Source: a virus. Taken from it: a stretch of 35,391 nt of DNA. Shown piece by piece: positions 7,380-32,967 of the stretch. The translations under genes were made by a program, and so were the position numbers. The stretch spans positions 1-35,391 of IMG/VR virus record IMGVR_UViG_3300032322_001594; one strand, given 5' to 3'. Below the pieces are notes generated by a model. That model had not been told where the DNA came from. It made no database searches and saw nothing but the letters and a program-made list of their open reading frames with translations. Position 1 is the stretch's first letter. Each line of letters starts with the position of its first letter.

Positions 7380-8126
7380 ATGAGAGTCACGCGACAGCGT
7401 TATGAGGCGCTTGAGCCGTGCCTGATGTGCCACTTTTCCATTGGCCTGCCTAACGCATGGGCAGCAAGGCTATTGGCAACACAGAAGACTTGGCCGGGCA
7501 GGATAAGGCGCAGGCGGGGATTGCCCGTGCCGAGTAGGGCGGAAGCTAACAGACGAACGGCGGTTAGGTCGGGCATTGCTCAACCGCAGACGTGGGGCAA
7601 GAGACGATGTGTAACGCCACAGGATTGGCAGGCTTGGGCTTTTGAACTAGAGCGCAAGCAAGTGGTTAGATACGAGCGCGCAACAGATTGGTCAAAGGGC
7701 TTGTCTGCTTATTATCTCAAGCATTCGTTAAGCAAAAAGCTGTCTGCAATGCGCGCGCGTATGCATTACGAGAAATACAAAGACGCGCCAGAGCTACGCT
7801 TCAAGCGCGCAATGCGTAATGCAGTCAAGCGAATCACACGCATTGCTAAGGTAAAGAAGGAGGGAAGAACCATTGAGTTCATTGGATGCACTATGCTTCA
7901 TGCGCGCAAGCACATCGAGAAACAGTTTAAGAAGGGAATGCATTGGAACAACCACGGAACGGTGTGGCACATCGACCACATCATTCCGATTTCCAAGTTT
8001 GATTTAACAGATCCGATGCAACGCAAGCGCGCCAATCACTTCACAAACTTACAGCCGCTTTATGTTCACGAGAATATGAAGAAGCGCGACAGAATCACGC
8101 AGGCGCATCAGCTTGCGTTGCTGTGA
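7380..8126 (+). CDS. HNH endonuclease
   Basis: The C-terminal part (residues ~165-239 of 248) carries a full HNH signature: HIEKQFKKGMHWNNHG, then WHIDHIIPISKFDL (His197, Asp199, His200), NLQPL (Asn224) and ENMKKRD. It is a metal-dependent DNA-nicking or cutting domain. The place just before the terminase genes fits both a homing endonuclease and the HNH partner of cos-type terminases. The first ~80 residues are Arg-rich and look less like a folded domain, so the true start may be later (for instance ATG codons near residue 124). The chosen ATG 7380 has TTGACC 22 bases upstream. Codon use (many gcgcgc, more A/T) differs from its neighbours, which suggests a mobile gene. Confidence 0.75.
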   Translation: MRVTRQRYEALEPCLMCHFSIGLPNAWAARLLATQKTWPGRIRRRRGLPVPSRAEANRRTAVRSGIAQPQTWGKRRCVTPQDWQAWAFELERKQVVRYERATDWSKGLSAYYLKHSLSKKLSAMRARMHYEKYKDAPELRFKRAMRNAVKRITRIAKVKKEGRTIEFIGCTMLHARKHIEKQFKKGMHWNNHGTVWHIDHIIPISKFDLTDPMQRKRANHFTNLQPLYVHENMKKRDRITQAHQLALL

Positions 8127-10994: not shown

Positions 10995-11315
10995 ATGTCT
11001 CCGCGCTCCTTTGTTTTCTCAGTCTGGGTAGCCAACAACAAAGACGCGACAAAGACAGTCGCGGCGCTTGAGGCCATCGCCTCCAACAACTTCACCGTCG
11101 CCAAGGAGGGCGGGCGCGTTCTTGTCAGCGCCAGCATGGGGGGCAAGAGCTACTCCTATTCGCTCCCCCCAGACCAGACCGCAGGCACCGTTGCGGATCT
11201 GGCGTTCTATTGCTGGAAAGAGATTAAGGATCTCGGCGCCGCCAACTTGGAACTCTGGCTGACACGCAAGACCTCCAAGACCGCCATCATGGCCCTTAAC
11301 TATCCGCTCGTATGA
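10995..11315 (+). CDS. head protein of unknown function between terminase and portal, 106 aa
   Basis: A 106-residue protein that looks alpha/beta. The N-terminus is helical (KDATKTVAALEAIASNN), then beta (GRVLVSASMGGKSYSYSL), then a helix and LELWLTRKTSK. By place (TerL - this gene - portal) it corresponds to lambda gpW, a head-tail joining protein, but it is longer and the likeness is only positional. There is no Shine-Dalgarno sequence. TTGACA lies at 10974-10979, 21 bases before the ATG. The stop overlaps the portal ATG. Confidence 0.5.
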   Translation: MSPRSFVFSVWVANNKDATKTVAALEAIASNNFTVAKEGGRVLVSASMGGKSYSYSLPPDQTAGTVADLAFYCWKEIKDLGAANLELWLTRKTSKTAIMALNYPLV

Positions 11316-12805
11316 AATTAGCCGACCGCTGGAAACTCGTCACCCGCGCCTTCAGCCCCAAGGCCCAGAGCTACGACGCCGCGCGTCCCTCCATCCAGCG
11401 CCGATTCCCTTACAACGCCAGCGCCGTCGATTCACACATCGACGTATCCGGCGCCGACCGCGAGCGACTGATGAAGTTAAGCCGCTGGGTCTACAACAAT
11501 ATGCCTTTTGTGCGCGGCCTCGTCAGCGAGAAAGCCCGCTACGCCACCGGCACGGGCATCCGCCCGCAGGCCCGCTCTGGCGATGAAGCCTGGGACACCG
11601 CCGCCGAAACTTTCTTTGAGCAATGGTCCCGCGTGGCCGACATCCAAGGCCGCTACACTTGGAGGGAAATGCAGCGGGTGGCGTCCATCGCCATTGATAG
11701 GGACGGCGAAGTTTTCTTCCGCGCCACCGCGCAGAGCACCGGCTATCCCGCCCTGCAACTCATTTTGGCCCACCGCATCGGTGACGCCCGCTCCTCGATC
11801 TACGAGCCGAGCAACCCTGTCGCCCGCGAGGGCGCGCAGAACGTGATCGACGGCGTGGTTGTTAATGACCAGATGCGCCCGATCTTCTACCGCCACTTGA
11901 TCGGTGACGGCATTGACCCCGCGCAGCGTTTTGAGGACATCCCCGCGCAGCAACTCATCCACGTCGGCGAGGCCAGCCAGGGCGACGAACTGCGCTACGT
12001 CACGCCGCTCGCCCCGTCCATCAACCACCTCCGTGATGTGTCCGACGCCATCTCGTTCGAGAAAATGGCGCTCAAAATTTCCTCCTATATCGCCCTGGCC
12101 ATTAAGTCATCGAACCCGCAAGGCGCCGACTTCTTCGGCGAATCCACCGCCAGCGTCAACGCCCAGGACAACAGCGAAGTCACCGTTGAATCCCTCGGCA
12201 ACGCAGGCGGCGCCATCCCGCGCCTCGGCATGGGCGAAGACCTGATCTCGTGGACCTCGAACCGCCCGACGCAAAACTTCCGCGAGTTCTGCGACCTTCT
12301 CCTCCGCGAAGTCTGCCTCAACATCGGCGTGCCCTGGGAATTTGCCGCGCGTCCCGCCGATGCCGGCGGCGCAGCCCTCCGCGCCGTGCTCGTTCGAGCG
12401 CAACGCACTTTCGAGCAACGCCAAGCCCTGCTCATCGACCGCCTCTGCTCTCGCGTCTGGGCGCACGTCATCACGCTCGGAATGCAGCGCGGCCTCATCC
12501 CGCAGAATGAAAATTGGTGGCGCGTCGAATGGCAGCGCCCGGCGGCTGCGTCCGTGGACTACGGACGCGAAGCACAAGCCAACCTCAACGATGTCCGCGC
12601 CGGCCTCCGAACTTACTCCGAGGACTACAGCGAGCGCGGCCTTGAGTGGAAAGACCAACTTCGCCAGCGCGCCGTCGAGGCCAAGTATCTGGCCGACTTG
12701 TCCGCAGAGTTTGGCATCAACGCCGACAGCATCGCCACTTTCAATCCCAACCCTGCACCGCCGACAAACACCGGCAGCGCATTGACACCGCAGCAAGCGC
12801 AATGA
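11312..12805 (+). CDS. portal protein, lambda family
   Basis: A 497-residue protein of the lambda gpB portal family. Typical parts are the N-terminal RERLMKLSRWVYNNMPFVRG (residues ~50-69), YTWREMQRVASIAIDRDGEVFFR, the AFEKMALKI-like stem helix, GMGEDLISWTSNRPTQNFREF, and IGVPWEFAARPADAGGAALRA, which is a hallmark of this family. It forms the dodecameric ring at one capsid vertex through which DNA enters and to which the tail joins. The length is near the family norm. It overlaps the genes on both sides by four bases. No Shine-Dalgarno sequence is visible. Confidence 0.92.
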   Translation: MKLADRWKLVTRAFSPKAQSYDAARPSIQRRFPYNASAVDSHIDVSGADRERLMKLSRWVYNNMPFVRGLVSEKARYATGTGIRPQARSGDEAWDTAAETFFEQWSRVADIQGRYTWREMQRVASIAIDRDGEVFFRATAQSTGYPALQLILAHRIGDARSSIYEPSNPVAREGAQNVIDGVVVNDQMRPIFYRHLIGDGIDPAQRFEDIPAQQLIHVGEASQGDELRYVTPLAPSINHLRDVSDAISFEKMALKISSYIALAIKSSNPQGADFFGESTASVNAQDNSEVTVESLGNAGGAIPRLGMGEDLISWTSNRPTQNFREFCDLLLREVCLNIGVPWEFAARPADAGGAALRAVLVRAQRTFEQRQALLIDRLCSRVWAHVITLGMQRGLIPQNENWWRVEWQRPAAASVDYGREAQANLNDVRAGLRTYSEDYSERGLEWKDQLRQRAVEAKYLADLSAEFGINADSIATFNPNPAPPTNTGSALTPQQAQ

Positions 12806-13890
12806 GTCGCAACTGGTATGCAATTCAATCGACCGAAGACGGCGAAGCCGAAGTGTCCATTTATGATGAGATCGGTTTTGGTGGCGTCACCGCAAAATCC
12901 TTTCTTGCCGAACTCAAAAAACTTTCCGGCCAGCGTGTTCACCTCCGCATCAATTCAGTCGGAGGATCAGTTGTCGAAGGCGCCGCAATCTACAACGCGC
13001 TACGTCGGCACAAAGGCGGCTTAGTCGTTCACATCGATGCACTTGCAGCCTCGATGGCCTCGGTCATCGCTATGGCCGGCGACGAGACACTGATCGCCGA
13101 CAACGCGCTTGTCATGATCCACAACCCGTGGGGCATGACGATGGGCGATGCCGACGAACTCCGCAAAGAAGCCGACATCCTCGACAAGCTCAAGGCCACC
13201 CTGGTCAACGCTTACGTCCGCAAGACCGGGATGGAAGCCGAGCAAGTCGCGCAAATGATGGATGACGAAACGTGGCTCGATGCCACCGAAGCCGTGGCCC
13301 TCGGTTTTGCCGACGCCATCGAAGACGGCATCGAAGCCGCCGCATCCATCACACCCGAAGCCGCCCGTGCGCGCTTTGACACTTTCCAGAACTCTATGGC
13401 CCGCAAAACGACCAAAACCATCAAAGCCGAAGAGGCCGCACCCGCCGAAGTTGTTGCGGAGCCGGTTGTCGAAGCCCCCGTCACGGACGGCGCGGTTGAC
13501 ACTTCCTCCGAGGATAACATGAACGCCGAACTTCAAGCGAAGGTGGACGCCCTCCAGGCCGACCTCGCCGCCAAAGTCGAAGCCGAAGCCGCGCAGGCGC
13601 AAGCCAGCGAGGACATCGCCAAGGAACTCGAAACGCTCAAAGGCGAGATCGACCGCCTCAGCAGTGAAGTCGCCGCCCGCGACGAGGAGATCAACGCCCT
13701 GCGCGCGGCCTCCAAAAGTGCTGGCGAGCAAGCTGCGGCGATCGTCGCTTCTGTTGGCCTTGAGCCCGTGGTTGTCCAGCCTGCCGAGCAGGAACTGACC
13801 GCCGCGCAAATCTTCAACTCACTCACCGGCGCCGAAGCCGTTGAGTATTTCCGCAACAACAAGCGCCAGATCATGGCCTCCGTTTACTAA
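12802..13890 (+). CDS. prohead protease (ClpP/S14-like) with C-terminal scaffold region
   Basis: A 362-residue fusion. Residues 1-175 are a ClpP-fold serine protease: RINSVGGSV (49-57, oxyanion region), AASMASVIAMAG (82-93, nucleophile Ser84), MIHNPWG (105-111, His107), and GFAD (168-171, Asp171). Residues ~200-330 are Glu/Ala/Lys-rich coiled coil like scaffold proteins, followed by a conserved-looking AAQIFNSLTGAEAVEYF end. This is the lambda C/Nu3 plan: protease joined to scaffold, cut during maturation. The start at 12802 overlaps the portal stop and has TTGACA 20 bases upstream. Two internal in-frame ATGs (13396, 13519) carry the same box. Confidence 0.88.
   Translation: MSRNWYAIQSTEDGEAEVSIYDEIGFGGVTAKSFLAELKKLSGQRVHLRINSVGGSVVEGAAIYNALRRHKGGLVVHIDALAASMASVIAMAGDETLIADNALVMIHNPWGMTMGDADELRKEADILDKLKATLVNAYVRKTGMEAEQVAQMMDDETWLDATEAVALGFADAIEDGIEAAASITPEAARARFDTFQNSMARKTTKTIKAEEAAPAEVVAEPVVEAPVTDGAVDTSSEDNMNAELQAKVDALQADLAAKVEAEAAQAQASEDIAKELETLKGEIDRLSSEVAARDEEINALRAASKSAGEQAAAIVASVGLEPVVVQPAEQELTAAQIFNSLTGAEAVEYFRNNKRQIMASVY
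13519..13890 (+). CDS. possible internal scaffold protein (Nu3-like) from an in-frame start
   Basis: The ATG at 13519 lies in frame inside the protease/scaffold gene and would give a 123-residue coiled-coil protein starting MNAELQAKVDALQADLAAKV. It is preceded by GAGGA four bases away and by TTGACA at 13496-13501, 23 bases away. In lambda, Nu3 is made in this way inside gene C. Another in-frame ATG at 13396 (MARKTTKTIK) has TTGACA at 13376-13381, 20 bases away, and would give 164 residues. That a separate scaffold is made is an inference from these signals. Confidence 0.5.
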   Translation: MNAELQAKVDALQADLAAKVEAEAAQAQASEDIAKELETLKGEIDRLSSEVAARDEEINALRAASKSAGEQAAAIVASVGLEPVVVQPAEQELTAAQIFNSLTGAEAVEYFRNNKRQIMASVY

Positions 13891-13894
13891 TTTT

Positions 13895-14791
13895 ATGGCT
13901 ACCATCAACTCAGCCCTCAACGACAAGCTCCTCGCGCAGACCGCGCTGGAAGCCTTCACTGCGGATCTCCTGCCGCTGTCCGTGTTTACAACCTCGTATT
14001 CGAACGAGGTCGTTCGCCGCGGCGCAACGGTTGAAGTCCCGCTCATCGCAAACCTCACCGCGACCACGTTCAACGACTCCTACGAGTCGACCGGCGGCAC
14101 GATGAATAACGTCTCCATCTCGGTGGACAAACACCAGATCGTCACCGTCAGCCTCAGCGACACCGAATACTCCAAGTCCTCGGTCGCCGAGATCACCAAG
14201 TTCGCCACCCAGCAGGGCCGCGCTTTGGCGCAAGCCGTGTTGACCAGCGTCTTCAACCTTTTCGTCACCACAGCGTCCTCGGCCACGCAGTTCAGCGCCA
14301 CGGTTACCGGAGCCAGCGCGTTCACTATCACGAACGCCCGCGCGCTCCGCAAGGCTCTCAGCGACGACAAAGTGCCGCTCACTGACCGCAGCCTCATCCT
14401 CGACAGCGCCCTCTACGACAGCCTCCTGTCCCAGAGCAACCTGCTGGATGCCTCGCAGTTCGGCATCCGCGACACCATCGCCGAGGCCCGCGTCCCGCGC
14501 CTGCTCGGCATGAACGTCTACGAGTCGATCATCCTGCCCTCCAACAGCATCACGCTGAAGGGCATGGCTGTTCACCCGAGCGCCGTTGCCGTCGCCGTCC
14601 GCGCCCTCGAGCCCCAGGCTCCCAGCGAATACCTCGCTGCCACCGTGGTCAACGATCCGCAGAGCGGCCTGACGCTCGGCTACCGCCGCCACTACTCGGC
14701 TGCGACCGGACGCCACTTCGTTTCCTTCGAGTGCGTCTTCGGCCACAGCCGCGCCATCACGGCCGCCGCAGAACTCATCACGGGAGCCTAA
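13895..14791 (+). CDS. major capsid protein
   Basis: A 298-residue protein right after the protease/scaffold gene. It begins MATINSALNDKLLAQTALEAF. Features of HK97-fold capsid proteins of the P22-coat-like type are the N-terminal LPLSVFTTSYSNEVVRRGATVEVPL and the later LPLTDRSLILDSALYDSLL segment, followed by IRDTIAEARVPRLLGMNVYES and an ending with beta strands (GLTLGYRRHY). It would form the icosahedral shell. No decoration gene lies beside it. Unexpectedly for the most abundant virion protein, there is no Shine-Dalgarno sequence and no TGACA box before the ATG. A strong terminator follows. Confidence 0.85.
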   Translation: MATINSALNDKLLAQTALEAFTADLLPLSVFTTSYSNEVVRRGATVEVPLIANLTATTFNDSYESTGGTMNNVSISVDKHQIVTVSLSDTEYSKSSVAEITKFATQQGRALAQAVLTSVFNLFVTTASSATQFSATVTGASAFTITNARALRKALSDDKVPLTDRSLILDSALYDSLLSQSNLLDASQFGIRDTIAEARVPRLLGMNVYESIILPSNSITLKGMAVHPSAVAVAVRALEPQAPSEYLAATVVNDPQSGLTLGYRRHYSAATGRHFVSFECVFGHSRAITAAAELITGA

Positions 14792-14817
14792 GCCTCCATC
14801 TCATACGCAACACGGAG

Positions 14818-14846
14818 CCCCCGGCCAACGCCGGGGGTTTTCGTTT
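14818..14846 (+). terminator. rho-independent terminator after the capsid gene
   Basis: CCCCCGGC (14818-14825), loop CAAC, GCCGGGGG (14830-14837), followed by TTTTCGTTT. An 8-bp GC stem with a tetraloop and a T-rich tail is a textbook intrinsic terminator. It lies between capsid and glycosyltransferase genes and would raise capsid mRNA over the downstream genes if it is leaky. Confidence 0.9.
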
Positions 14847-14870: not shown

Positions 14871-16634
14871 ATGGAGAAACAAAGCCCGCGCGAGCAGATC
14901 GCGCTTTGCGTCATTGTGGGGAACGAGCCGAAGCGGCTCGACAAGTGCCTCACGCTATTCGGTCCCGCAGTCAGCGAAATGGTTGTGGTTCACGCGCCAG
15001 GCGGCGAGGCCAAGAGCATTATGGTCGCGGAAGTCTGCAAGAAGCATGGCGCGAAATACGATGTCTGGAACAACCCGCCAGAGTTTGAAAACTGGCCGCA
15101 CGTTTCGGACTTTGGCGCAGCCCGACAAAAGTCTTTTGACCTTGCCACAAAGCCCTGGGCGCTGTGGGTCGATGCCGACGATACGCCAGGGCCGAGCTTC
15201 GCATCGGCCTTGCACGAACTCTTAGAAAAGCACGGCGAGAACTTCGATGCCTTCGCCCTGTTTCACAATGTCGCCGGGCGCGGCATCGCCCACAACATCC
15301 GCGAGCGCCTCGTGCGCCGCGACAAGGGCAAGTGGGTCAATCGCATCCACGAGAACTTCCAACTCGGCGCCGACGCCCGCATTGCCAAGTGCGACGAGCC
15401 GACCGTGATCCATTTGCCCGACGATGAGCCCAAGCAGGGCAGCAACCGCAATCTCACCATCCTCGAAAGCATCCCCGAGGCCGAGCGCACCATCTCGGAG
15501 ATTTACCATCTGCACGGCGAATACATGGGTCACGGGCGCAAGACCGAAGCAATGGCCCTTGCCAAGCAAGCCTTGGCCCACCCGGACCTCAAAGCCACCG
15601 AACGCTACGAGCTTTGCCTTAACATTTGCGAACTGGCGCGGCCCGAAGTGCTGGAAACGGACTCGCCCGAATACAAAGCCATGATGACGGCCCTGCATTC
15701 GGCCTACAAAACGCAGCCCAACCGCCGCGAAGCCCTGGCCCTGCTCGGTGCTATGCACCTCGACCTCGGCGACCTTGTGACCGCCGAAGCCTATATCCGC
15801 GCCATGATGGCCCTGCCGCGCCCCGTCGATAAGCCGTGGACCCACCGCGACGGCCTCTACGGATGGGCGGGAGAAACCCTGTGGACGCAATGGCTCCGCA
15901 TGGCCGAGCAAGGCGACAAGGCCGACAACATCGAACGCGCCCGCATCAAGCGGCACAAAGTTAGCATTTCCATCGTCCACCCGACTCGCGGACGCCCCGA
16001 GCAAGCCGCCCGCGTCCGCAAGGCGTGGCTCGATGCCGCCGCCGATCCTGAACGCATCGAATACATTTTTGCCTTTTCCGAGGATGACGATGATACGCGC
16101 GGAATACTGCAACGCTTCCGCCATGCCCTTTCGCCTGCGGGCAAGCTAGATCAAGTGGGCGGCACGCTCGTCGAGAACTACAATGCCGGCGTCCGCGCCA
16201 GCGCAGGGCAAATCATCCTAACCATCCAAGACGATCTGCATTGTCCGCTTCATTGGGACAAGCAGATCGAGGAGGCACTGGCCGACAAGCTGCACAAGCC
16301 CGCTGCCTTGCAAATCCGCGACGGCTACCGCCAGGACGATCTGCTCATCACCTTCTGCGTCACGCGGCCCACGCTCAAGCTCTTCGGTTTCAACGGCGGC
16401 ATCGTCTGCCCAGAATACCGAGGCGTTTTCTGCGACAACGATTACACCCGCCTCGTGCAGAAACACGGCATCCTCGTTCCGTCCGACATCACCTTTCGCC
16501 ACGAGCATCCGTTTTTCAATCCCGCCGTCCCGACCGACGCCACTTACGCCATCGAGAACAGCGAGCCGGGCTATGCCTACGGCAACGAAGTCTACTGCCG
16601 CCGCTGGCCCGCTGACACCACCCCCAGCGCATGA
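14871..16634 (+). CDS. two-domain family-2-like glycosyltransferase in the virion operon
   Basis: A 587-residue protein. Domain 1 (residues ~9-200) is a GT-A family-2 type: IALCVIVGNEPKRLDKCL, DFGAARQKSFDLA, and WALWVDADDTP with the metal-binding DADD at 101-104. The middle (~205-345) is helical and TPR-like (LHGEYMGHGRKTEAMALAKQ; RREALALLGAMHLDLGDL). Domain 2 (~360-560) looks like a second GT-A domain (VSISIVHPTRGRP, then ILTIQDDLHCPLHWD). It would transfer sugars to a protein or another target. Its place between capsid and connectors suggests the virion is glycosylated, but DNA or the host surface are other targets. No Shine-Dalgarno sequence; TTGACA 14848-14853 is 23 bases before the ATG. 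Confidence 0.8.
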   Translation: MEKQSPREQIALCVIVGNEPKRLDKCLTLFGPAVSEMVVVHAPGGEAKSIMVAEVCKKHGAKYDVWNNPPEFENWPHVSDFGAARQKSFDLATKPWALWVDADDTPGPSFASALHELLEKHGENFDAFALFHNVAGRGIAHNIRERLVRRDKGKWVNRIHENFQLGADARIAKCDEPTVIHLPDDEPKQGSNRNLTILESIPEAERTISEIYHLHGEYMGHGRKTEAMALAKQALAHPDLKATERYELCLNICELARPEVLETDSPEYKAMMTALHSAYKTQPNRREALALLGAMHLDLGDLVTAEAYIRAMMALPRPVDKPWTHRDGLYGWAGETLWTQWLRMAEQGDKADNIERARIKRHKVSISIVHPTRGRPEQAARVRKAWLDAAADPERIEYIFAFSEDDDDTRGILQRFRHALSPAGKLDQVGGTLVENYNAGVRASAGQIILTIQDDLHCPLHWDKQIEEALADKLHKPAALQIRDGYRQDDLLITFCVTRPTLKLFGFNGGIVCPEYRGVFCDNDYTRLVQKHGILVPSDITFRHEHPFFNPAVPTDATYAIENSEPGYAYGNEVYCRRWPADTTPSA

Positions 16635-16936
16635 GTCAGTTCGCGCAAGCCTACACTGCCGCCAGCACCGAGGCCGTCGGCACGATCCGCGACCAGATCG
16701 AGTATAGGGAGCGCACCTATCTCGCCGTGGTCGGCGAGGAAAGCTATGGCAACTCTCTGGGCGAAGGCGGCTTTGAGCCCCAGCGCGGCCTGACCGCCAC
16801 CGTGCTCAAAGCCGGCGCACCGACCTACCGCCTCGGCGGCATCGTCAAATTTCAAGACCGACGCTACCGCATCACCGGCATCGACACCGACACCGCCACG
16901 ATCGACCTCACCCTGCAAAGCCCCGACAGCAAATGA
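16631..16936 (+). CDS. head-tail connector / head closure protein (candidate)
   Basis: A 101-residue protein with an N-terminal helix (ASTEAVGTIRDQIEYRERTYLA) and a beta-rich C-terminus ending in RLGGIVKFQDRRYRITGIDT, the kind of beta-barrel seen in head-closure and lambda gpFII-like proteins. The assignment rests on size, fold pattern and place between the head and tail genes. The ATG overlaps the glycosyltransferase stop, and CTGACA lies 19 bases upstream (16612-16617). Confidence 0.55.
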   Translation: MSQFAQAYTAASTEAVGTIRDQIEYRERTYLAVVGEESYGNSLGEGGFEPQRGLTATVLKAGAPTYRLGGIVKFQDRRYRITGIDTDTATIDLTLQSPDSK

Positions 16937-25683: not shown

Positions 25684-26364
25684 ATGGGCGAGACGATCAC
25701 AATACGCACGGGTTCCTCAACCGATGTCATCAAGGTCATCGAGCGAGGCCCGCAGGGGCCGCAGGGCGCTGCCGGGGCAGGGCTGACTACGCTTACGCAA
25801 ACCGGCGATATGCTCTACCGAGACGCAACCGGCGGGCAGCGCCTCGGCATCGGCACCGCAGGCCAGATTTTGAAGGTCAACTCTGGCGGAACAGCACCCG
25901 AATGGGGTGCAGCCCCGGCGAGCGGTGTGTCTTCGGTTAATGGCGCAACGGGCGCGGTCACGATCCCGTCATTTTCGTATGGCTTTGGCGGCTCTGGCCT
26001 CGTGCCGCAGGCGTCTGGCGGTGACGCATACAAATTTCTGAAGGGAGATGGAACTTGGGCCGACACTCCAGACTACGTTAGCGCCTCCGAAGTCGAAACC
26101 GACTATTTTGACAGAGGCACGAGCGATGCCGCAACACGATCTGGAACGGGCGGTCAAAAACGATATCAAGTCGTATTAGCTAATGACTCGCGGCTAACCG
26201 ACAATCGCCGTCCGGCGACTATGTTTCCTGCTCCATCCAGCCCCACCGACCGGAATGATCAACCAGTCGGGACTCTCTCTTACGATGGTGCCTATCTGTA
26301 TTTTTTAATGAACATCACAAACGTGGGCCAAAGATGGCTTCGTGTTCCCGTGGCGGCTTGGTAA
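25684..26364 (+). CDS. tail fibre protein with short collagen-like segment
   Basis: A 226-residue protein. After an N-terminal ITIRTGSSTDVIKVIERG comes a short collagen-like repeat (GPQGPQGAAGAG, residues 22-33). Fibre repeats follow (LTQTGDMLYRDATGGQRLGI, then GTAGQILKVNSGGTAPEWGA), a common shaft motif of phage fibres. The C-terminus is aromatic (LSYDGAYLYFLMNI). It is probably a trimeric fibre that binds the host surface. Confidence 0.7.
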   Translation: MGETITIRTGSSTDVIKVIERGPQGPQGAAGAGLTTLTQTGDMLYRDATGGQRLGIGTAGQILKVNSGGTAPEWGAAPASGVSSVNGATGAVTIPSFSYGFGGSGLVPQASGGDAYKFLKGDGTWADTPDYVSASEVETDYFDRGTSDAATRSGTGGQKRYQVVLANDSRLTDNRRPATMFPAPSSPTDRNDQPVGTLSYDGAYLYFLMNITNVGQRWLRVPVAAW

Positions 26365-26369
26365 TTCTC

Positions 26370-28616
26370 ATGGCCCTCAACGACATCAAAGTCCCCAAAG
26401 AAAACGCGAGCGGCACGTTTGACGAAATTGCTCTTGCCGCGTCCGACCTCAAACTCGGCACCACCGCCAACCTCCCGCTCAAGACAGGCACAGGCGGCGT
26501 AGTCGAGGCGGGTTCATTCGGAACGGCGGCAGGGACGTTTTGCGAGGGTAATGATGCTCGGTTGAGTGATGCGAGGACGCCAAGCAGCACCCTCGCGCAC
26601 AAACAATCCCATTCTACAGGCGGCACGGATGCGCTGGACCCCAGCGATATTGGGGCACAGTCGATTTTTGCAGTTGAAAGCCTCGTCATTACGACAGCAT
26701 CTCAAGTTAATCTTACAGCAGCACGCGCTAAGATTTTTGATATAGTTCAGTATGCAGGGCAACAGGTCGACGTAAAATTGCCATCAACCAACGCAATGGC
26801 AGGTGATGTGTTTGTATTTCGATGGGGAACAGGCAATGATTCCATCAGAATTATTAATTCGTCCACGCCCGTGCCAATCACCATAGTTTCTGGCGGACAG
26901 CAAAAGCGACTTATTCGTGGATCAATGGACTCATGGAGTCTCATCCCCGTTGATACCCATACGCACGTTGTCGCAGACGTAACAGGCGCAGCCGCCAGCG
27001 GCTCCATCACCTCCAGCGGCCTCACCCAAGCCACCGCCCGCATCCTCGGAAGAACGACCGCCAGCACAGGTGCCATCGAAGAGATCACAATCGGATCGGG
27101 CCTTTCGCTTTCGGCGGGGGAGCTTTCGGCTACGGGTGCAGGCATCCCTGCTACGATTGTGGACGCCAAAGGCGACCTCATCGTGGCCTCGGCGGCAGAC
27201 GCCGTGGCGCGGCTCCCCGTGGGCGGGACGAACGGCCATGTGCTGACAGTCGATTCGGCTGAGACTTTGGGAGTGAAATGGGCGGCGGCGGCAGGTGGAG
27301 TTGGCGGCAGCACAGGCTCCACCGACAATTCTATTTTGCGGAGTGACGGCACGGGGGGTAGCACGTTGCAAGCCAGCGCCATCGTCATCGAAGACGCCGT
27401 TTCGCCATTCAATATTACAGGCGATGCAGGAACGGACATCATTACGGCAGTCGGCCACAACTACACAGCCAACCAAGGCGTCCGCTTCCCAACACTGACA
27501 GGCGGCAGCGGCCTAACCGCAGCAACCACCAACTACTTCGTCCGCGACATTTCTGGCAACACGTTCAAAGTCTCCACAGCGAGCGGCGGCTCGGCGGTCA
27601 ACTTCACGACCAACATCACGGCGGGGACGGTGATTGCCATGCAGGCAAATGTCGCCATCGTCAACAATTCGTCGGAAACAAATTCGGCATTGGTGCTGAC
27701 GCCGAAAGGCACTGGCGCATTCATTGTCGGCCCGAGGCCAGACGGCGCGGCCACGGTTGGCGGCAACCCACGGGGCGCAAGCGCCGTGGATCTGCAAACA
27801 ATACGCACAGCCGCGACACAAGTTGCCAGCGGCATCAATTCATTTGCCTGCGGCGCGAGCAACACAGCCAGCGGAGAAAATTCTTTTGTTGCCTGCGGCA
27901 CTGGCAACCTCGCCAGTGGGTCTCGGGCGGCGGTGCTTGGCGGATACAACAGCACGGCGTCAGGCAACAACGCAGTCGTTCTTGGCGCGCTAAATACGGC
28001 AGCAGGAGAGACTGCTGTTGTTTGTGGCGGTTATACCAACAGCGCAAGCGCAAGCGAGGCGGGCGTGTTTGGCGGCAATACCAACAGCGCAACCTCCGCA
28101 CGCGCTGTCGTAGTCGGCGGCAACGGGAACACAGCGTCTGCCGATTCAGCGATTTGCCTCGGCTCAAAAGAAGCGAGGGCTGACAGGTTCGCCATTCAAG
28201 CTCACTCCGCTGGAGCCTTTGCGGCGGGAGGTGATGCCCAGCGAATCCGCGCTGTCCTACGCTGCAAGACCACCACAAATGCAGCCGTGGAAATGGCTCT
28301 TAACGGCACTACGACCTATCTTACAATTCCCAGCGGCAAGGTTATATTCTGTAACATAAAAGTGGTCGGCGTAAAATCGGACGGCGCAGTAGTCGCAACC
28401 TACGAGCGGCAATATGCGGCCAAGAATGTGGCGGGGACGAGCAGTGAAGTGTTTGCCCCAGTAACTATCGGCACGGACAACGCCGCATCGACATCTCTGG
28501 AAGTCGCAACGGTGGACGCAGGCGACTACATCAGAATCCGCCCAACTGGAATCACATCTGAAATATGGCGCTGGGTCGCCAGCGTGGACGCCGTGGAGGT
28601 CGCATATGGAAGCTAA
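26370..28616 (+). CDS. long tail fibre with YadA-like head repeats
   Basis: A 748-residue protein. The N-terminus (LNDIKVPKENASGTFDEIAL) is a common fibre start. The middle has shaft motifs (IVDAKGDLIVASAADAVARL; HVLTVDSAETLGVKWAA). Residues ~490-600 hold about eight 14-16-residue repeats of the YadA-head type (NTASGENSFVACGTGN; STASGNNAVVLGALN; NTASADSAICLGS), known from trimeric autotransporter adhesins. The final ~150 residues form a separate domain. It is probably the main receptor-binding fibre. It overlaps the next gene by 11 bases. No Shine-Dalgarno sequence is visible. Confidence 0.75.
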   Translation: MALNDIKVPKENASGTFDEIALAASDLKLGTTANLPLKTGTGGVVEAGSFGTAAGTFCEGNDARLSDARTPSSTLAHKQSHSTGGTDALDPSDIGAQSIFAVESLVITTASQVNLTAARAKIFDIVQYAGQQVDVKLPSTNAMAGDVFVFRWGTGNDSIRIINSSTPVPITIVSGGQQKRLIRGSMDSWSLIPVDTHTHVVADVTGAAASGSITSSGLTQATARILGRTTASTGAIEEITIGSGLSLSAGELSATGAGIPATIVDAKGDLIVASAADAVARLPVGGTNGHVLTVDSAETLGVKWAAAAGGVGGSTGSTDNSILRSDGTGGSTLQASAIVIEDAVSPFNITGDAGTDIITAVGHNYTANQGVRFPTLTGGSGLTAATTNYFVRDISGNTFKVSTASGGSAVNFTTNITAGTVIAMQANVAIVNNSSETNSALVLTPKGTGAFIVGPRPDGAATVGGNPRGASAVDLQTIRTAATQVASGINSFACGASNTASGENSFVACGTGNLASGSRAAVLGGYNSTASGNNAVVLGALNTAAGETAVVCGGYTNSASASEAGVFGGNTNSATSARAVVVGGNGNTASADSAICLGSKEARADRFAIQAHSAGAFAAGGDAQRIRAVLRCKTTTNAAVEMALNGTTTYLTIPSGKVIFCNIKVVGVKSDGAVVATYERQYAAKNVAGTSSEVFAPVTIGTDNAASTSLEVATVDAGDYIRIRPTGITSEIWRWVASVDAVEVAYGS

Positions 28617-31745: not shown

Positions 31746-32750
31746 CTAAATAGCCCACCAAGCCTTCCAATCCGCGAGCGCGGCGGGGACAGCATAGACG
31801 CGCTGAACCATCGCGGAGGACGTGTGGCCCATCTGGTATGCGGTCAGGCCGGCATTCTTGGCGCGGGCTAGGTGGTAGGTGGCAAAGGAATGTCGCAGAC
31901 AATTATCGGGCCATTCAGAGAGCACGGGCGCGCAGGCCCGGCGTCGGTGCGTGTGCAGCGTCTCGGAGGCCACGGGGATGATTTTGCCCGATTGCTTGGC
32001 GAGCCATGACCGTCGCCTACGAAGCGGCTCGGTAAAGTCCACGATGCGCTGGTCAAAGCCGCCCGAATCCTTCATCGCCCCAGGAGGCACGTGGATTTGC
32101 GCCGATTTAGTATTTACGTGGCTCCAATCCATTTGCTGCACCTCCTCAGTCCGCAGTCCGGCAAAGCCTCCAAGGAGCAGCAGCGCCCGCACATGATCGG
32201 GAAGCTCCAAGTCCAGCAGCGCCTTCATCTGGTCGGGCGCGAGGATGTTTCGCCCCGGCTTAGTCTTAGGTGCAGGAACCGCCGCGATCGGGTCGTGGGG
32301 GATGAGGCGATTGCTGGCGAGGTAGCCAAAGAACATCCGCGCATAGCGGTAATACATGGCCTGAGTGTTAGTGTTGTCCGAGCGGCCCTTGATCCATCGG
32401 CGCAGGGCCACAGCCTCGATGTCGCCCACTGCCCCGCTAAACGCCTTACCGAATGCCTTCTTAAAGATAGCCAGCTTCTGCTCGTGGCTAGAGCTTTTCG
32501 GATCGGCCTCGTTTACGAACATCCGCAGCGCCGCCTTGACCGTCAGGCCGTCAGGATTGTGCAGCGATTGCATCCCTTTCTCGGTCACGCGGGCCGTCAG
32601 CTTGGCCCCCTCCGCCCACGCCAATTCCTCGGACGGAAAGAAGTGCCGCACCCTTTGACCGTGGGCAAAAAAATCGCATAGCCACGGGTTAGCCTTGTTC
32701 CAATCGGCTCGGCGCACTCGGAATCTTACGGGGTTAATGTTGCTCCTCAT
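31746..32750 (-). CDS. int: tyrosine-recombinase integrase
   Basis: A 334-residue protein (from ATG 32750) of tyrosine integrase type. It has an arm-like N-terminal region, a core-binding domain (SSHEQKLAIFKKAFGKAF; YYRYARMFFGYLASN) and a catalytic domain with AGLRTEEVQQM (first Arg), KDSGGF (Lys), NCLRHSFATY (second Arg, with Asn in place of the first His), MGHTSSAM (His) and VQRVYAVP (nucleophile Tyr). It would integrate the phage at the tRNA-Ser gene. The frame stays open upstream to 32948, but that part is translation through the tRNA fragment (VKPTVGSNPTPS) and the hairpin, so it is not real. ATG 32780 is an alternative; both ATGs lie inside TTGGCAATGA repeats. Confidence 0.93.
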   Translation of the reverse strand: MRSNINPVRFRVRRADWNKANPWLCDFFAHGQRVRHFFPSEELAWAEGAKLTARVTEKGMQSLHNPDGLTVKAALRMFVNEADPKSSSHEQKLAIFKKAFGKAFSGAVGDIEAVALRRWIKGRSDNTNTQAMYYRYARMFFGYLASNRLIPHDPIAAVPAPKTKPGRNILAPDQMKALLDLELPDHVRALLLLGGFAGLRTEEVQQMDWSHVNTKSAQIHVPPGAMKDSGGFDQRIVDFTEPLRRRRSWLAKQSGKIIPVASETLHTHRRRACAPVLSEWPDNCLRHSFATYHLARAKNAGLTAYQMGHTSSAMVQRVYAVPAALADWKAWWAI

Positions 32751-32795
32751 TGCCAAGATTGCCAAAAACCTACGCTTCATTGCCAACATTAGCAA
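32750..32795. promoter_or_regulatory. integrase arm-type site candidates, integrase side (tandem TTGCCAA)
   Basis: TTGCCAA at 32750-32756 and 32759-32765, TTGCCAA at 32780-32786 and TTAGCAA at 32789-32795: two pairs, each with a 9-bp period. They overlap the two possible integrase start codons, so the integrase may also control its own synthesis by binding here. Confidence 0.55.
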
Positions 32796-32798
32796 ACG

Positions 32799-32858
32799 AA
32801 AAGCCGCGACAAGCAAAGACACTGGAGCGGCGTAAGTGTCTGAGCTTGTGCGGCTTTT
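32799..32858. terminator. large inverted repeat between attP core and integrase; bidirectional terminator-like
   Basis: AAAAGCCGC (32799-32807), ACAAGC (32809-32814) and AGACACT (32817-32823) pair with AGTGTCT (32835-32841), GCTTGT (32844-32849) and GCGGCTTTT (32850-32858): 22 base pairs with one bulge and one 2-base mismatch. The AAAA/TTTT ends fit a two-way terminator. In the prophage, the rebuilt tRNA-Ser gene reads toward the integrase, so the hairpin would end the tRNA transcript and shield int from read-through. Confidence 0.7.
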
Positions 32859-32872
32859 ACAGAGAAAAAAAA

Positions 32873-32927
32873 CGGAAGGGGTGGGATTCGAACCCACGGT
32901 TGGTTTAACCCAACGCTCGATTTCGAG
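32873..32927 (-). other. attP: attP core: 3' part of a tRNA-Ser(CGA) gene
   Basis: On the minus strand this holds the anticodon loop CTCGAAA (anticodon CGA), the 3' anticodon stem TCGAG, a long variable arm (TTGG/CCAA stem), the T arm GTGGG-TTCGAAT-CCCAC, the acceptor 3' strand and discriminator G; CCA is not encoded. The 5' half of the tRNA is absent: the sequence beyond the loop pairs at only three of five positions. This is a phage attachment site that restores the host tRNA on integration. The exact left end of the identity block needs the host sequence. Confidence 0.88.
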
Positions 32928-32967
32928 GGGAGCGTTCGTCTGTGGCAATCAAGGACTTACAAAGTCC

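Follow-up and report, generated by a model that had tools for sequence, protein, structure and literature searches.

Chemical documentation of phage virion glycosylation comes mainly from a few mycobacteriophages, in which the effect that has been studied is the shielding of the particle from antibodies. Glycosylation of the virions of Che8, Corndog and Myrna was reportedly described by Freeman et al. in 2023, as relayed in papers that cite that work. Two reports (PMC11256854, PMC12363180) describe Che8 capsids as glycosylated by phage-encoded transferases, and mycobacteriophages glycosylate tail tube proteins as well as capsid proteins (PMC12363180, PMC12619734). Among solved protein glycosyltransferases, GmaR acts on flagellin, with substrate recognition proposed for its TPR domain (PMC9638930), and SunS and ThuS act on bacteriocin precursors, ThuS with both O- and S-linkage (PMC6405829).

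The window analysed here, i.e. all 35,391 nucleotides of the IMG/VR virus record IMGVR_UViG_3300032322_001594, encodes a two-domain glycosyltransferase (GT) of 587 amino acids (14871-16634, plus strand, as are the head-block genes and their features below, ATG start). Pfam recognises two Glycos_transf_2 (PF00535) stretches in the protein (E 2.9e-11), the best of them at residues 367-472, and the score of 44 bits against a curated cut-off of 23.3 assigns it to GT family 2. Each half matches its own PHROG glycosyltransferase family (13126 for residues 63-331, 14945 for residues 365-567). In an AlphaFold2 model made from 25 family sequences (mean pLDDT 90.3), a GT-A-like domain 1 (about residues 8-185; 14892-15425) is followed by helices (about residues 193-360; 15447-15950) and by a second GT-A-like domain (about residues 364-578; 15960-16604). 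The helical linker is TPR-like, judging from the modelled helices and from profile matches to TPR proteins, and weak Pfam TPR matches occur in L101; the linker could possibly serve as a grip on the substrate. Pfam, PHROG and AlphaFold2 together confirm the succession of a GT-A domain with DADD motif, a TPR-like middle and a second GT-A-like domain that the initial annotation had proposed.

Both domains carry DXD-type motifs for metal and nucleotide sugar, namely DADD in domain 1 (residues 101-104; 15171-15182) and a DD pair in domain 2 (D454 and D455; 16230-16235). D101, D103 and D104, together with H160 and E161 of an IHE motif (residues 159-161; 15345-15353) that aligns with IHE in GmaR, are invariant across 25 diverse relatives, and D454-D455 is invariant in the 25 aligned relatives that have a full domain 2. 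In close pairs, dN/dS is 0.03-0.13 in both halves, which indicates purifying selection and means that the open reading frame is not a chance one. We did not find any membrane segment in the protein, its highest 19-residue hydropathy being 1.2. Judged from these sequence features, the protein is predicted to be a working catalyst.

The closest solved relatives of the first half are transferases that act on proteins. A profile search of the PDB with domain 1 and the linker returned GmaR (E 2.3e-15), in an alignment that takes in the IHE motif, then SunS and 7msk (about 1e-9), as well as TPR proteins. Foldseek independently placed SunS and ThuS first (7msn, 7msp and 7msk, E 2.3e-14 to 4.8e-13), with a TM-score to the query of about 0.4 because the match spans domain 1 and the linker only; second in rank were teichoic-acid transferases such as TarP and TarS. 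Membership of the SunS family (TIGR04195) can be rejected, as domain 1 scores 18.4 bits against a curated cut-off of 350, so that a protein acceptor is suggested through remote kinship. Domain 2 gives no pointer to proteins, since Streptomyces phages carry its relatives amid genes for DNA metabolism, beside a nucleotidyltransferase.

The gene stands within a block of head genes whose order, portal-protease-capsid-GT-connector, is the same in relatives. The block begins with the portal protein gene (11312-12805; PF05136, E 1.2e-46) and continues with a ClpP-type head maturation protease (12802-13890; PF00574, E 4.5e-33, and the PHROG of that name), which likely starts at 12802 rather than at 12646, where the program-made ORF opens. 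The major capsid protein gene follows (13895-14791, 298 amino acids; PHROG 283/267, major head protein, and HK97-type fold matches); its start is likely the ATG at 13895 rather than 13841, as read from the sequence and in agreement with alignments. The capsid model matches mycobacteriophage capsids, with Che8 among the best, but HK97 folds match widely and this likeness therefore carries little weight. The GT gene opens 79 nt past the capsid stop, and the gap holds a terminator-like hairpin of 12 pairs with a T-rich tail (14814-14841). Of 96 relatives, 86 have a similar hairpin 3' of the capsid gene, whereas such hairpins occur in 1.8% of random stretches of 153 nt. High-level transcription of the capsid gene probably ends at this hairpin, in which case the enzyme would come from read-through.

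At its other end the GT gene shares 4 nt (16631-16634) with a likely head-tail connector gene (16631-16936, 101 amino acids), beyond which come the neck and tail genes. The connector protein of the window itself has no family match; its family profile matches the head-to-tail joining protein 8gtf (E 0.0064), and among 15 relatives one matches a head-closure PHROG, while three matches are to minor-tail-protein PHROGs. The place described in the initial annotation, between the capsid gene and the next head-tail gene, behind a terminator and with an overlap of 4 nt, thus holds, whereas its naming of that next gene as a connector stands less firmly. The tail genes further downstream are far more variable between relatives than the first half of the enzyme. 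The window also encodes a large tail protein (26334-28616) that scores below the threshold for a beta-roll ice-binding family (PF21300, 25.5 bits, cut-off 30), probably through a resemblance of repeats. Elsewhere in the window, an ORF at 7380-8126 appears HNH-like by eye and has no Pfam match; its relatives (L006 9274, L007 2800, L020 14011) occur on the opposite strand and at differing places, as expected of a mobile gene.

One striking feature of the enzyme is the constancy of its position. IMG/VR was scanned with the enzyme, portal and connector as separate queries, which yielded a close clade in which the enzyme lies between capsid and connector in every contig spanning both; as the portal and connector scans are independent of the enzyme, they represent a fair test of its presence. 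The sole insertion seen between capsid and GT genes in this clade is a DNA methylase (N6_N4_Mtase) at L078 10574-11815, the same contig as L120. A broader profile scan found 413 stretches encoding relatives. All 71 distant loci inspected have the capsid gene upstream of the enzyme, with two small ORFs in between in L201 and L203, and portal and protease precede the capsid gene wherever the contig reaches (the protease profile missed L224). The initial annotation had asked whether relatives would reveal a variable cargo gene at different places; the close-clade contigs, the 71 distant loci and the capsid survey described below rule this out. In a sister clade, further genes lie between GT and connector: those at L223 8925-9431, L261 8957-9688 and L235 8609-9625 resemble ATP-dependent DNA ligases by eye, and that at L270 8175-9023 resembles a DNA cytosine methyltransferase. 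A scan of bacterial genome contigs gave a single match, a relative with 24% identity from a Sericytochromatia bin (L026 1222-2025), and we found no cultured phage with near DNA identity to the window.

A non-redundant capsid survey comprised 97 genomes with the enzyme gene (96, plus L018 with a truncated capsid gene) and eight that lack it, namely verrucophage P8625, the four P8625-like contigs L136-L139, and L162, L166 and L169. On the capsid tree, a single change (SH-aLRT 94) accounts for presence and absence; the tree is unrooted, has long branches and does not by itself fix the direction as gain or loss. No empty site was found within the gene-bearing clade, the gene being absent in outgroups only. 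P8625, which infects a verrucomicrobial strain (PMC4642752) and is distant from the window phage, does without the gene, meaning that a related capsid assembles without the enzyme. Capsid residues T57 and T58 (14063-14068) and T289 (14759-14761) hardly vary among phages that have the gene and mostly differ in those that lack it; they are possible acceptor sites, in a comparison where the two capsid groups differ by a single branch only.

In contrast to the position of the gene, the second half of its product is exchanged between relatives. Compared with the enzyme of L004, the window enzyme has 92% identity over its first half and 58% over its second; for L013 the values are 63% and 89%. A 100-nt identity profile, tree tests and the trees themselves place an approximate recombination breakpoint at 15900-15970, on the border of linker and domain 2, before which the window resembles L004 and L002 and after which it resembles L013. 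In AU tests, the grouping of domain 2 is rejected for domain 1 (p 0.0057) and that of domain 1 for domain 2 (p 2e-8); the groups were picked after inspection of the data, which makes these p-values optimistic, but the identity profile does not depend on them.

A third type of domain 2 occurs in other relatives, where the slot also holds a gene for about 310 residues. The L101 version of this gene matches Glyco_trans_1_2, and the L012 version, which has no Pfam match, is called GT-B-like through a chain of 33-69% similarity to the others. L052 and others pair such a gene with a degenerate domain 2 of about 100 residues, and L101 carries an additional GT2 gene too. In the sister clade, a Methyltransf_24/TylF-like domain stands at the C-terminus, and there is also a GT2 gene of about 190 residues. 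The extra GT2 proteins resemble Che8 gp108, a GT2 fused to a TylF-like methyltransferase (36% identity over 195 residues in L189, 30% in L101, 31% in L270). With gp108 homologues and TylF-like domains found in relatives and absent from the window, the slot behind the capsid gene gathers, across the family, the two activities of the Che8 cassette. The window enzyme itself has no similarity to Che8 gp109 and gp110, the best scores being 16-19 bits.

The capsid-linked position, in itself indirect evidence, the protein-transferase kin of domain 1 and the gp108-like and TylF-like enzymes at related loci strengthen the reading that the enzyme glycosylates virion proteins. We predict with good confidence that its acceptor is a virion protein, whether capsid or other, and consider it likely, if with somewhat less assurance, that the enzyme is the core of a virion glycosylation module acting foremost on the capsid protein. 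This develops the suggestion of the initial annotation that capsid or tail proteins are glycosylated, and is based on the comparative data set out above. As part of the head operon, the gene would be transcribed only in so far as the terminator lets transcription through, which would suit catalytic amounts. Domain 1, with the TPR-like linker as a grip, would place a first sugar, drawn from a host nucleotide sugar, on a side chain of the newly made capsid protein, and domain 2 would add a second one. On this view, lineages would share the priming step and differ in the outer glycan. The benefit may be a changed surface chemistry of the particle that might, for instance, protect or stabilise it or help it attach weakly to host polysaccharide, although this is speculative.

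A larger proposal is that capsid glycosylation is built in across the family, with a constant primer and with second-step GT domains, GT-B-like genes and methyltransferase domains swapped as cassettes, so that related phages differ in sugar coat, as particle "serotypes", on a near-identical capsid. We put this forward tentatively, as an idea that may well prove wrong in its full extent. The gene's place behind the capsid gene and the exchange of its second half suggest that these phages coat their own shells with variable sugars.

Of the competing explanations, the one closest to our own, that a tail tube, neck or fibre protein is glycosylated instead of or besides the capsid protein, is rather unlikely. 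Mycobacteriophages do modify both capsid and tail tube, as mentioned above, and the GT gene overlaps the connector gene with neck and tail genes next; however, it is the capsid gene that constantly stands upstream, and the downstream tail genes vary far more than the enzyme's first half. On the same two observations, the Thr/Ser-rich fibres that the initial annotation had in mind as acceptors are not supported.

A role in serotype conversion or superinfection exclusion, in which the enzyme would modify lipopolysaccharide or another polysaccharide on the host surface, is improbable despite the rank of TarP and TarS among its fold neighbours. An integrase gene on the minus strand (31746-32948; Phage_integrase PF00589, E 2e-7) makes a temperate life possible, and the window phage may indeed be temperate, whereas the related phage P8625 is described as lytic. 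The enzyme, however, has no membrane segment, no gtrA/gtrB-like partner occurs among the window ORFs scanned, which sets the locus apart from Gtr systems, and in every relative the gene keeps its place within the late head block.

Phage DNA as the acceptor is more improbable still. Phage transferases that modify DNA with diverse glycans exist, according to work cited in PMC12619734, and the company that domain 2 relatives keep in Streptomyces phages would fit such a role. Yet there is no base-hydroxylation or hypermodification gene among the Pfam-scanned ORFs of the window, which may be an incomplete genome, the solved structures closest to domain 1 are of enzymes that modify proteins, and the linkage is to the capsid gene and not to replication genes. 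Finally, structural genes have a similarly fixed place in the head block, but a non-working transferase kept for its fold as a structural or assembly factor is scarcely credible given the invariant DADD, HE and DD residues, the swapping or replacement of domain 2 and the further sugar enzymes added in the slot, and the assembly of P8625 without the enzyme.

If capsid glycosylation by this family holds true, the presence of such a fixed module next to the capsid gene throughout a broad environmental lineage would mean that sugar coating is selected without an animal immune system. With domain 2 exchangeable, the role of the sugar becomes open to test by comparing natural swaps that occur beside near-identical capsids.

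Our search of the literature found no described capsid-adjacent glycosyltransferase of this kind, which is not proof of absence, and each of the known systems shares only part of the arrangement. SunS and ThuS, the closest solved fold for domain 1 and linker, have a GT-A domain followed by helices and act on protein, but the window enzyme has a second GT-A domain that they lack, and no bacteriocin precursor or transporter partner was recognised in the window block. GmaR, the GlcNAc transferase of Listeria flagellin, likewise has an N-terminal GT followed by TPR, and its acceptor is a self-assembling structural protein; it runs on into a linker and antirepressor domain, where the window enzyme has its second GT-A-like domain. 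Among phages, the unrelated Manatee Spring podovirus MW202524 encodes a GT2-TPR protein close behind its capsid gene, as in the window, then two more GT genes. Across domain 1 and a portion of the linker this protein is 25% identical to the window enzyme, but its second half is GT-B (Glycos_transf_1), and the podovirus capsid is not matched by the capsid profile of the window family. Relatives of the podovirus enzyme came from one further contig only. As for Che8, a phage-encoded set of transferases is proposed to act on the capsid, as we propose for the module of the window family. According to PMC11256854, Che8 genes 108-110 are separate single-domain or GT-methyltransferase genes near the genome end and far from the capsid gene, in contrast to the one fused GT-TPR-GT protein fixed behind the capsid gene here. 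The activity that we propose, phage virion glycosylation, is thus a known one; its form would be new, being capsid-fixed, fused, two-step, domain-shuffled and carried by an uncultured lineage.
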